Of a stretch of 64,000 bases of DNA, positions 8,630 through 32,662 are shown in pieces. Positions within the stretch are counted from its first letter, which is position 1, and each line of letters starts with the position of its first letter. The notes beneath the pieces are model-generated. The model saw only the letters and a program-made list of their open reading frames with translations. It did not search any database and was not told the origin of the DNA. The DNA lies in NCBI GenBank assembly GCA_015056155.1, contig SVGU01000003.1, forward strand, positions 1 through 64,000. The letters run 5' to 3'. A program made the translations under genes and the position numbers. The stretch comes from Clostridiales bacterium (GTDB lineage Bacteria > Bacillota > Clostridia > Christensenellales > Aristaeellaceae).

Positions 8630-8657
8630 GAAAAACACCTCCGGAGTTTTTCAAATT
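8625..8657 (-). repeat. 33-nt RBS-bearing module, copy 1 (upstream of hisA)
   Basis: Sense strand AATTTGAAAAACTCCGGAGGTGTTTTTCATGAT, identical to 10725-10757. Confidence 0.9.
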
Positions 8658-8686
8658 CGGAATTCGGAATGCGGAATTCGGAATTG
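8654..8686 (+). repeat. Solo heptamer-repeat arm between hisB and hisA
   Basis: AATTCGG AATTCGG AATGCGG AATTCGG AATTG; same heptamer order as 23934-23966. Confidence 0.9.
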
Positions 8687-10729: not shown

Positions 10730-10757
10730 GAAAAACACCTCCGGAGTTTTTCAAATT
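10725..10757 (-). repeat. 33-nt RBS-bearing module, copy 2 (upstream of hisD)
   Basis: Identical 33 nt to 8625-8657. Confidence 0.9.
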
Positions 10758-10781
10758 AAGAATTAAGAATTAAGAATTGAG
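10754..10781 (+). repeat. Heptamer repeat (AATTAAG)x3 + AATTGAG; contains the hisG stop codon
   Basis: 7-bp tandem repeat; hisG TAA lies at 10770-10772. Confidence 0.85.
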
Positions 10782-11417
10782 CTTGGCGACCTCTGCGGCG
10801 AGACCGTCGATGATCTCCCGGATGCGGTCGCGCTTGGTCTTCATGGATACGCGGTTGACCACCAGGCGGGCGGAGCATTCGCAGACGTCCTCCAGCACTG
10901 TCAGGCCGTTGGCGCGCAGGGTGCTGCCGCTCTCGACGATGTCGAGGATCACGTCGGACAGGCCGATCACCGGGCCCAGCTCGATGGAGCCGTGCAGCTC
11001 GATGATCTCGATCGTCTGGCCCTTTGCGTCGTAGAAGCTGCGGGCGACGCTGGGGTACTTCGTCGCCACGCGGAAGGTGGCGCGGGTCGCCTGCTGATGG
11101 GACTGGTCGGCATAGCCGGCGATGCACAGCCGGCAGCGCCCGAAGGTGAGGTCCAGCACCTCGTACAGCGGGCGGCCGGCCTCCAGCAGCGTGTCCTTGC
11201 CCACCACGCCGAAGTCAGCCACGCCGTGGTCGACGTAGGTCGGGACGTCGCTGGGCTTGACAAGGATGAAGCGGATGTTGTTCTTCCTGTCCCACAGGAC
11301 GAGCTGGCGGCCGGGATTGCGGGGCTCGGAGCAGTCGATGCCGAGATTCTCCAGCAGCGTGAAGGCCTGCTCCGCCAGACGCCCCTTGGCCAGGGCAAAG
11401 GTGATGACCGGCTGCAT
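10770..11417 (-). CDS. hisG: ATP phosphoribosyltransferase, short (HisZ-dependent) form
   Basis: FALAKGRLAEQAF ... VDHGVADFGVVGKD; ESGSTLRANGL. Confidence 0.93.
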   Translation of the reverse strand: MQPVITFALAKGRLAEQAFTLLENLGIDCSEPRNPGRQLVLWDRKNNIRFILVKPSDVPTYVDHGVADFGVVGKDTLLEAGRPLYEVLDLTFGRCRLCIAGYADQSHQQATRATFRVATKYPSVARSFYDAKGQTIEIIELHGSIELGPVIGLSDVILDIVESGSTLRANGLTVLEDVCECSARLVVNRVSMKTKRDRIREIIDGLAAEVAKLNS

Positions 11418-22156: not shown

Positions 22157-23062
22157 ATGAAGGATCTGAGCGTAACCCTCTCCGGCGTGAAGCTGGACAA
22201 CCCGATCATCCCCGCCAGCGGCACCTACGGCTTCGGCCAGGAATTCCTGCCGTTCTATGACATCAACATCCTCGGCTCCCTGTCCTTCAAGGGCACGACC
22301 GCCCAGAGCCGCTTCGGCAACCCCACCCCCCGCATCGCGGAGTGCCCCAACGGCATGCTGAACTCCGTCGGCCTTCAAAACCCCGGCGTGGATCATGTCA
22401 TCGCCCATGAGCTGCCCGAGCTGCGCAAGATCTTCCGCAAGCCCATCGTCGCCAACATCAGCGGCTTCTCCATCGAGGAGTATGTGGAGTGCGTCTCCAA
22501 GCTGACGAAGGAGGACCAGGTGGAGATCCTCGAGGTGAACATCTCCTGCCCGAACGTCCACGGCGGCGGCATGGCCTTCGGCACCAGCCCGGAAGCGGCA
22601 GCCAGCGTCACCCGCGCGGTCAAGGAAGTCGCCACCAAGCCCGTGTACATCAAGCTGAGCCCGAACGTGACGGACATCGTGTCCATCGCCAAGGCCTGCG
22701 AGGAGGCCGGCGCGGATGGCCTGAGCCTCATCAACACCCTGCTGGGCATGCGCATCGACCTGAACCGCCGCAAGCCCATCCTGGCCAACGTCATGGGCGG
22801 CTACTCCGGCCCCGGCATCTTCCCGGTGGCGGTGCGTATGGTGTACCAGGTGACCGGCGCGGTGAAGATCCCCGTCATCGGCATGGGCGGCATCTCGACT
22901 GCCCGCGACGTCATCGAGATGATGATGGCTGGCGCGAAGGCCGTGCAGGTCGGCGCGGCGAACCTGGTGAATCCCTACGCATGTAAGGAGATCATCGAGC
23001 AGCTGCCGATCGAAATGGAAAAGCTGCACATTGAGAGGCTGAGCGACATTCAGCGCGTGTGA
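22157..23062 (+). CDS. pyrD: Dihydroorotate dehydrogenase, catalytic subunit (class 1B)
   Basis: [57 protein letters not shown]. Confidence 0.95.
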
Positions 23063-23070
23063 CGCGCTGT

Positions 23071-23175
23071 AATTCGGAATTCGGAATGCGGAATTCCGAA
23101 TTTGAAGTGTATGCCATGTGCCGATCACCGAAGTTCGTGTCCAGTAACTGAATTCCGAATTCACAATTCCGAATT
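23071..23175 (+). mobile_element. Gene-less heptamer-armed element (MITE-like) between pyrD and pyrF
   Basis: Left arm AATTCGGAATTCGGAATGCGGAATT; inverted right arm AATTCCGAATTCACAATTCCGAATT (22/25 pairing); ~45-nt core. Confidence 0.65.
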
Positions 23176-23232: not shown

Positions 23233-23931
23233 ATGGCTAAGGACGTCATCATTGCCCTCGACTTTGAGAATAAGGAAAAGACCCTCGCGTTCCTCGATCA
23301 GTTCACCGGCCGCAAGCCCTACGTGAAGATCGGCATGGAGCTGTACTACGCCGAAGGCCCCGCCATCGTCAAGGAGATCAAGGCCCGCGGCCACAAGATC
23401 TTCCTGGACCTGAAGCTGCATGACATCCCCAACACCGTCAAGAAGGCCATGGCCGTGCTGCGCCACCTGGATGTGGACATGACCAACCTGCATGCTTCCG
23501 GCACCATCGCCATGATGGAGGCCGCCAAGGAAGGCCTGACCAAGGAAGACGGCACTTGCGGCGTGCTGCTGGCGGTCACTCAGCTGACCTCCACCTCCGA
23601 GGAGCGCATGCAGAACGAGCTGCTGATCAACGCCTCCATGCCCGACACCGTGAAGAAGTACGCCCAGAACGCCAAGGCCGCCGGTCTGCCCGGCGTGGTG
23701 TGCTCTCCGCTGGAGGCTGCGCTGGTCAAGGAAGCTTGCGGCGCGGACTTCCTGACCGTGACCCCCGGCATCCGCTTCGCTGACGGCGACGTGGGCGATC
23801 AGGTGCGCATCATGACCCCCGAAAAGGCGAAGGCTGCCAGCGACTACATCGTCGTCGGCCGTCCGATCACCGCGGCGGCGGACCCGGTGGCGGCTTATAA
23901 CCGCTGCGTGAAGGAATTCCTGGGGGAGTAA
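23233..23931 (+). CDS. pyrF: Orotidine 5'-phosphate decarboxylase
   Basis: [44 protein letters not shown]. Confidence 0.95.
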
Positions 23932-23933
23932 GT

Positions 23934-24399
23934 AATTCGGAATTCGGAATGCGGAATTCGGAATTTGGTTTGTGAGACTGAATTCTGAATGAAGCGTAGG
24001 AGTTTTGAATGAAGGATAATAATGTTGTAGTGATGAAGAGCAAAGCGTTTGCATTGCGGATCATCAAGCTGTACCAGATGCTCAATCAGCAGCATGAACA
24101 CATTATGTCCAAGCAGATGCTGCGAAGCGGAACGTCGATAGGGGCAAATGTGAAAGAGGCAATTCGCGGACAATCCCGCGCGGATTTCTTCTCAAAACTG
24201 AACATTGCTCTGAAGGAAGCAAGTGAAACGGAATACTGGTTGGAGCTCCTGTACGAGAGCGGCTACATCAATAATGAAGCAGCATATCAAAGCATTTATA
24301 GTGACTGCCAGGAGCTCATCTCGATTCTTGTTGCAATTACTAAGGCGCAAAATCAGTCCACACTATAAATTCCGAATTCCGAATTCATAATTCCGAATT
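23934..24399 (+). mobile_element. Heptamer-armed element carrying a four-helix-bundle gene
   Basis: 33-nt terminal inverted repeats (23934-23966 vs 24367-24399, 30/33) around one ORF, inserted between pyrF and pyrE. Confidence 0.7.
24009..24368 (+). CDS. Four helix bundle protein (S23/23S rRNA intervening-sequence-protein family)
   Basis: LRSGTSIGANVKEAIRGQSRADFFSKLNIALKEASETEYWLELL signature. Confidence 0.93.
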   Translation: MKDNNVVVMKSKAFALRIIKLYQMLNQQHEHIMSKQMLRSGTSIGANVKEAIRGQSRADFFSKLNIALKEASETEYWLELLYESGYINNEAAYQSIYSDCQELISILVAITKAQNQSTL

Positions 24400-24424: not shown

Positions 24425-25081
24425 ATGGAAGCTTACAAGGTAGAGTTCATCAAATTCCTCGAGGACGCGGGCGTGCTGAAGTTCGGCGATTTCACCGCCA
24501 AGTCCGGCCGCAAGATCCCTTACTTCATCAACGCCGGCGACATCAAGACCGGTGACCAGATCGCCAAGCTGGGCGAGTTCTACGCCAAGGCCTACCTGGA
24601 GAAGGTCGGCAACAAGCGCACCGTCCTGTACGGCCCCGCCTACAAGGGCATCTCCATCGCGGTGTCCTCCGCGGTCGCGCTGTCCAAGCAGGGCCTGGAC
24701 GTTCCCTTCTTCTTCAACCGCAAGGAAGTGAAGGATCACGGCGAAGGCGGCGTGTTCGTGGGCTATGTCCCGAAGGCCGGCGAGGAAGTCGTCATCGTTG
24801 AGGACGTCATCACCGCCGGTACCGCCATCCGCGAGAGCATGGCCATCCTGGGCCACCTCGAGGGCGTGAAGGTCGCCGCGACCTTCATCATGGTCGACCG
24901 CAAGGAAAAGGGCAAGACCGAGAAGTCTGCCATGGCCGAGGTGCAGGAGGAGTTCGGCTTCCCGGTGTACTCCGTCGTGGACGTGTACGACATCATCGAG
25001 TACCTCGAGGCGGACGAGAAGAACGCCGAGAACGTGCAGCGCATCAGGAACTACCTGGCCGTGAACGGCGCGCAGGCGTAA
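24425..25081 (+). CDS. pyrE: Orotate phosphoribosyltransferase
   Basis: YGPAYKGISIAVSSAVALS; VVIVEDVITAGTAIRE. Confidence 0.95.
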   Translation: MEAYKVEFIKFLEDAGVLKFGDFTAKSGRKIPYFINAGDIKTGDQIAKLGEFYAKAYLEKVGNKRTVLYGPAYKGISIAVSSAVALSKQGLDVPFFFNRKEVKDHGEGGVFVGYVPKAGEEVVIVEDVITAGTAIRESMAILGHLEGVKVAATFIMVDRKEKGKTEKSAMAEVQEEFGFPVYSVVDVYDIIEYLEADEKNAENVQRIRNYLAVNGAQA

Positions 25082-32571: not shown

Positions 32572-32662
32572 GAATTTTGAATGCGGAATGGTGAATGGCG
32601 CCTGTGATGCTGATGCACATACGCCGCAGAAATTCCGAATTCCGCATTCCGAATTCCCAATG
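32572..32662 (-). mobile_element. Heptamer-armed gene-less element downstream of the XRE/S24 regulator
   Basis: Minus strand arm GGGAATTCGGAATGCGGAATTCGGAATTT, core hairpin, then diverged ATTC-N3 heptamers. Confidence 0.55.

Follow-up and report, generated by a model that had tools for sequence, protein, structure and literature searches.

Paired heptad arms of a gene-less element among pyr genes and around genes of the 23S rRNA intervening sequence protein family

The window, a stretch of 64,000 nucleotides from a Clostridiales bacterium (assembly GCA_015056155.1, contig SVGU01000003.1, positions 1 to 64,000), carries a 105-base hairpin at 23071-23175, between pyrD (22157..23062, plus strand) and pyrF (23233..23931, plus strand). 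It consists of a left arm that reads (AATTCGG)2 AATGCGG AATTCCG AATT (23071..23102, plus strand), a core of about 48 nt that contains no open reading frame (23103..23150, plus strand), and a right arm of inverted heptads with conserved mismatches to the left arm (23151..23175, minus strand). Both arms repeat a 7-nt unit, GAATNNN, in tandem, with an almost invariant GAAT and a variable NNN. The core ends in AAGTGTATG on the left and CCAGTAACTG on the right, and other copies have similar sequences at the two ends of their cores. The hairpin has an RNA folding z-score of -3.4 on either strand, and it lies between two protein genes rather than in 23S rRNA; an Rfam scan of the window gave no match, rRNA included.

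The gene pyrF separates this hairpin from a second element 863 bp downstream, in the spacer before pyrE (24425..25081, plus strand). This element is 466 bp long (23934-24399) and has arms as in the hairpin (left, 23934..23966, plus strand; right, 24367..24399, minus strand), placed around an intact gene. The two left arms are identical over 25 nt (23071-23095 and 23934-23958) and agree at 35 of 36 positions over a longer stretch, and the reverse complement of 23151-23175 matches the left arm at 22 of 25 positions; the two differ at positions 12, 13 and 18, as do the arms of the gene-bearing copy. The first-pass annotation had claimed the left-arm identity, the common mismatch positions and the lack of an open reading frame in the core; the first two proved exact, and the third was also borne out. 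No intrinsic terminator-like site, namely a GC-rich stem with a U-run, was found in the arms of either element.

The enclosed gene (24009..24368, plus strand) encodes a 119-aa four-helix bundle that belongs to the "23S rRNA intervening sequence protein" family, hereafter IVP (PF05635, 1.5e-27; TIGR02436, 6.5e-32). Its AlphaFold model is a four-helix bundle with a pLDDT of 92.5, and in Foldseek it aligned with 2rld (TM 0.88, 58% identity) and 2gsc (TM 0.81), structures with five chains each, and with the Avd subunit of diversity-generating retroelements (4dwl and 8ub7, TM 0.72-0.75). We recognised no catalytic site in the protein; the element encodes IVP alone, with no transposase, and its neighbours in the window are pyr genes, with no reverse transcriptase, TR or VR beside it. 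The IVP of the pyrF-pyrE spacer is present in three species, namely our own genome (G000), G009 and G005. Between G000 and G009 the dN/dS is 0.04, a rough value with dS near saturation, which indicates strong purifying selection on IVP. In G005 the IVP element at this site has other heptads (GAATTAG/GAATTAT) in both arms, so either the arms changed jointly or the element was replaced.

Related arms recur well beyond these two elements. A related 18-mer occurs at 19 sites in the window with 0.05 expected, and the arm pattern has 92+89 matches in the whole genome where its reversed control has 1, so the recurrence is not due to chance; exact arrays of three GAATNNN units followed by GAAT number 64 in the genome, and the control with the sequence reversed gave 3. 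Within the window lie a second gene-less paired element of 83 bp (32573..32655, minus strand) between co-directional minus-strand genes, a lone GAATTCG/GAATGCG arm between hisA- and hisB-like genes (8654..8685, plus strand), and a lone (AAGAATT)n array (10748..10786, plus strand). Another IVP of this genome (C85) has arms built on a unit of their own, TGAATAA, which also occurs at several other places free of IVP; thus one genome holds two IVPs, two arm flavours and gene-less copies of each. Several other arrangements were observed. At L006:204-582 (G000:C20), GAATNNN arms surround a DUF6487 zinc-ribbon-like open reading frame and no IVP. Lone (GAATTCG)n arrays at L012, L019, L022 and L028 adjoin a common motif, GAGAGTGGNGTACGGC, mostly in divergent or convergent spacers, and form a separate sub-class. 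Whole elements are tandemly duplicated or triplicated at L008:1484-1811 and L010:1483-1793, flank or core included. In IVP2-type elements (L032, L286 and L292) both arms lie upstream of IVP, and the arms of L032 and L286 are of the TGAATAA family with an inner GCGAAGCG palindrome.

Within the genus, arrays of three GAATNNN units followed by GAAT were found in 12 of 17 congeners (2 to 185 matches, controls near zero). IVP was detected in 5 of the 18 genus genomes, which carry 16-146 array matches, and the genomes without it have a median of 2; genomes with IVP thus tend to have more elements (MWU p 0.011; Fisher p 0.0065). Three genomes that are 71-88% complete (G004, G012 and G014) have 65-185 matches and no detected IVP. 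At two junctions of the pyr region an element is present in some congeners, and the junction in other congeners consists of just a stop codon and a ribosome-binding site. The elements are placed between these two signals, and the arm's own TAA sometimes serves as the stop. In G004 and G012, other gene junctions carry full-length relatives of 23071-23175 (arms and core, 76-78% identity), which indicates that the whole element moved and not the arms alone.

These comparisons bear on the earlier proposal that the hairpin is a MITE-like derivative of the larger copy. Membership in the same family and the gene-less, MITE-like form stand: a genome-wide search found many further arm pairs, and the pyrD-pyrF element of G012 has other heptads and another core. 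Derivation from the neighbouring copy was not supported: the core is closer to the gene-less elements elsewhere in other species than to the IVP copy. In relatives the pyrD-pyrF spacer showed absent arms or unrelated sequence, and an ordinary pyrF leader conserved among them was not seen. Congeners carry other GC-rich repeat elements in the pyrD-pyrF and pyrF-pyrE spacers (L034-L044), which marks these spacers as hot spots for small insertions. Occupied and empty junctions are only 80-94% identical, with flanks too diverged for a target-site duplication to be read, and no exact empty site or target duplication was found in 20 syntenic genus regions, plasmids and viral contigs.

The element common to two close species, G006 and G014, has an identical right arm and a core that is about 65% identical; constraint or homogenisation acts on the arms and not on the core, and persistence of arms with drift of cores is compatible with a regulatory role. 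Among 29 elements, GAATGCG is the second heptad from the core in one arm (15/29), and GAATTAT, GAATGAT, GAATTGT or GAATTAG is the third heptad in the other arm (22/29); the fixed mismatches between arms are thus a feature of the family. In a covariation test, arms paired with their own partners no better than with shuffled ones, as fixed mismatches would entail, and G-U and A-C mismatches in IVP elements were about equal (112 vs 100, no asymmetry). Selection for a precise RNA stem was therefore not seen, and the data speak for the arms as recognition arrays rather than for selection towards a perfect RNA stem, although all six sequences tested for RNA folding folded strongly (z -3.4 to -5.5).

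IVP genes are generally associated with inverted heptad arms whose sequence is specific to each IVP. In the phylum, 45 of 250 genomes contained IVPs. At most of the loci read there, the gene lies between two period-7 arrays, of which the downstream one is the upstream one in reverse complement, with a unit of their own for each IVP (TAGTAAC, GTCAGCA, GTAGCTG, GTTGGAA, TTCGAAG and others). We then considered 80 named IVP loci in about ten phyla or classes, namely Clostridia, Bacteroidota, Fibrobacter, Lentisphaeria, Verrucomicrobia, Planctomycetota, Gammaproteobacteria, Neisseriaceae, Campylobacterales and Nitrospirota. Period-7 arrays flank the gene on both sides in 71 of the 80 and on at least one side in all 80, and six other lags pooled over the same loci gave 2 and 5, respectively; at one locus (L162) the upstream flank was masked and its value is void, and its downstream array counts. 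Flanks reaching 15/21 numbered 142 of 149, against 58 of 1089 distal blocks (5%; p 2e-128, for loci that are not fully independent). Arm sequences are different for every IVP, with the period of 7 retained. IVPs of viral contigs mostly have period-7 arms too, as do 13 plasmid IVPs from cyanobacteria, Bacteroidota, Chloroflexota, Spirochaetota and Bacillota. The placement of IVP elements is intercistronic: with neighbouring genes called by a simple longest-ORF rule, both neighbours were co-directional with IVP in 65 of 77 cases and opposite in 3 of 77. We found no description of a link between IVP and heptads outside rRNA in the open-licence literature, and an earlier report elsewhere is possible.

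There are departures from this pattern. Arrays of period 11 (TAAACGATAGT) flank the IVPs of L068 and L070, and the arms at L347 have period 8. IVPs without clear arms were seen at L131, L134, L060 and L078, and those of G006 and G013 are without period-7 arms; 13 IVP loci, mostly lacking clear heptad arms, were checked for a location in 23S rRNA, and none lies inside it. At L134:1948-2016, a Gut-1 RNA (RF01706) adjoins the IVP gene. In G073 and G195 the heptad of the IVP was found at the IVP itself only, and the idea that every IVP has gene-less copies was rejected on their account.

Two IVP elements of viral contigs lie inside host genes. At L347:595-4431 (IMGVR_UViG_3300031711_000204), the element with period-8 arms is nested in the error-prone DNA polymerase gene dnaE2, whose frame stays open through the insert while IVP is read in another frame, and at L350:352-3465 (IMGVR_UViG_3300043089_000180) an element with AGTGNNN arms lies in-frame inside BREX-1 pglX. 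Intact homologs span both joined sites. The host frame over IVP has 0 stops in these two cases, and the corresponding frames of 105 of 105 ordinary IVP genes contain stops (mean 9.2); under synonymous recoding, an open frame arose by chance in 13 of 20000 trials for pglX and in 8-25% for the GC-rich polymerase case. IVPs of plasmids were also seen inside defence gene clusters (L216-L218, L222 and L340-L342), in the contexts drmD-IVP-pglX/mmeI of DISARM, hsdS-IVP-hsdR with an unannotated IVP, helicase-IVP-methylase, DUF1156-IVP-Swt1 HEPN and cas2-IVP-cas1.

Considering the above results, we assign 23071-23175 to a family of small insertion elements, as a member that is gene-less and non-autonomous; the gene-bearing form of this family carries the IVP gene. 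We have proposed a plausible model for its spread. An IVP oligomer with the Avd fold might recognise the arm arrays, single-stranded or as hairpins, by analogy with the way Avd reads its template. With the help of IVP, an enzyme supplied elsewhere, either a reverse transcriptase or the replication and repair machinery, would copy the element, and the new copy would land downstream of a stop codon and ahead of the next ribosome-binding site. Copies without a gene would keep the arms and be copied in trans by IVP, and inserted copies would be transcribed as hairpins, probably cut by RNase III and tolerated in the manner of rRNA intervening sequences. RVT_1 was found in 8 of the 18 genus genomes, was weakly associated with element number (Fisher p 0.054), and was absent from G000, which is 74% complete; a reverse transcriptase may or may not be the partner enzyme. 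The connection between IVP and arms is shown by association, and we infer binding, chemistry and activity. Counting against this model are the three array-rich genomes without a detected IVP (G004, G012 and G014, though these are incomplete), the IVPs of G006 and G013 without period-7 arms, the heptads of G073 and G195 at the IVP only, the pairing of arms with their own partners no better than with shuffled ones, the equal G-U and A-C mismatches, the lack of a recognised catalytic site in IVP, and flanks in which no target-site duplication could be read. The pattern is observed directly and the mechanism is our proposal; taken together, we judge a family of IVP elements copied through arm recognition to be somewhat probable, and the same holds for the place of 23071-23175 in it.

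Part of the evidence would also suit a domesticated intercistronic hairpin, whose mobility is ancient and whose arms are kept for separating or stabilising cistrons in the mRNA as an RNase III site or an exonuclease barrier. The paired elements lie mostly between tandem genes, fold strongly, and in three species are kept at one junction with diverging cores (L014, L308 and L315), to which the identical right arms of G006 and G014 can be added. We consider this explanation unlikely, however, as the element is missing at the same junctions in many congeners, the G-U pairs measured on IVP elements have no strand bias, and the orientation of gene-less copies to their host genes looks mixed. Less probable still is a classical MITE, in which an unrelated transposase recognises the arms and IVP is cargo or a regulator: the size, the inverted arms, the excess of gene-less over gene-bearing copies and the arm pair around DUF6487 would fit, but no transposase lies between the arms of the IVP elements read in detail, no target duplication was seen at junctions as diverged as those described, and arms that differ for each IVP under a constant period of 7 fit the IVP family and not one transposase.

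It is also very doubtful that the arrays are simple repeats grown by slippage, which IVP genes merely tolerate or insert into. This is the published view of the heptamer excess (PMC4692102), and the copy number of arrays does differ between strains (Planktothrix L216/L218; viral L289/L290), yet the arrays flank IVPs on both sides in inverted orientation, other lags show nothing, the heptads of G073 and G195 are single-copy and confined to the IVP, and cores disperse along with arms. An intron-like element removed from the transcript, an idea drawn from the excision of rRNA intervening sequences, seems the most improbable of these explanations, since an element that is spliced out would need no open frame and both insertions in genes keep the host frame open, in pglX far beyond chance; moreover, no Rfam match was found anywhere in the window.

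The inverted 7-base arrays around IVP genes extend the anatomy of the intervening sequences (IVS) of 23S rRNA to operons, and point to a widespread and little-noticed kind of bacterial mobile element. The association may explain the long-standing excess of heptameric repeats among bacteria, in whose genomes tandem heptanucleotides have been attributed to polymerase slippage (PMC4692102). It ties this excess to the intervening sequences of 23S rRNA, whose origin and function are unclear (PMC4990558), makes both testable, and gives context to a large family annotated merely as "four helix bundle protein". Still more broadly, and only tentatively, IVP genes could be the core of an unrecognised class of mobile elements in many phyla, without a transposase of their own, in which an Avd-like oligomer would read inverted tandem arrays whose short unit, mostly of 7 nt, evolves freely, insert or copy the element into operons and spawn gene-less copies. 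Such a class might explain much of the heptameric excess, with rRNA intervening sequences as a special case and some copies in genes, in two frames; we think this wider proposal possible, though it may well be wrong.

Several known systems resemble these elements in part. Heptameric simple sequence repeats share the period of 7 and the intergenic position (GGGAATC in Xanthomonas, GGGGATT in Nostoc, TAACTGA in Beggiatoaceae, and STRR); the Xanthomonas heptamers form 70-75 inverted pairs (PMC4692102), X. campestris also has an IVP, XCC0516 (2gsc), and the Nostoc unit is contained in the IVP arms of Planktothrix. Unlike the arrays here, they were published as products of slippage or as G-quadruplexes, without a link to IVP. 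MITEs are likewise small and gene-less, with inverted ends common to a gene-bearing element, but neither a transposase nor a target-site duplication was found here. Avd has the same fold as IVP (4dwl and 8ub7), PF05635 has been likened to it (PMC10053308), and one IVP also matches bAvd (PF22296); a diversity-generating retroelement differs in the RT, TR and VR that are missing beside the element of the window. The REPIN/RAYT system likewise has a gene copy that lies between inverted repeats of its own, hairpin doublets without a gene throughout the genome and a repeat flavour specific to the gene (PMC3116915), whereas the gene here encodes an Avd-like four-helix bundle of PF05635 and not a Y1 HUH transposase, and the arms are tandem heptad arrays in place of the palindromic REPs of RAYT. 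The 23S rRNA IVS of Coxiella has terminal inverted repeats, strain-variable GACAGAT heptads, an S23p open reading frame and RNase III cleavage (PMC4990558). The intervening sequences of Coxiella and Leptospira have in common with our elements the IVP/S23p protein family, stem-forming terminal inverted repeats, and small forms without and larger forms with an open reading frame, to which Coxiella adds heptameric tandem repeats; in contrast, the elements described here lie between the protein genes of operons, in tens of dispersed copies, and their arms are generally heptad arrays.
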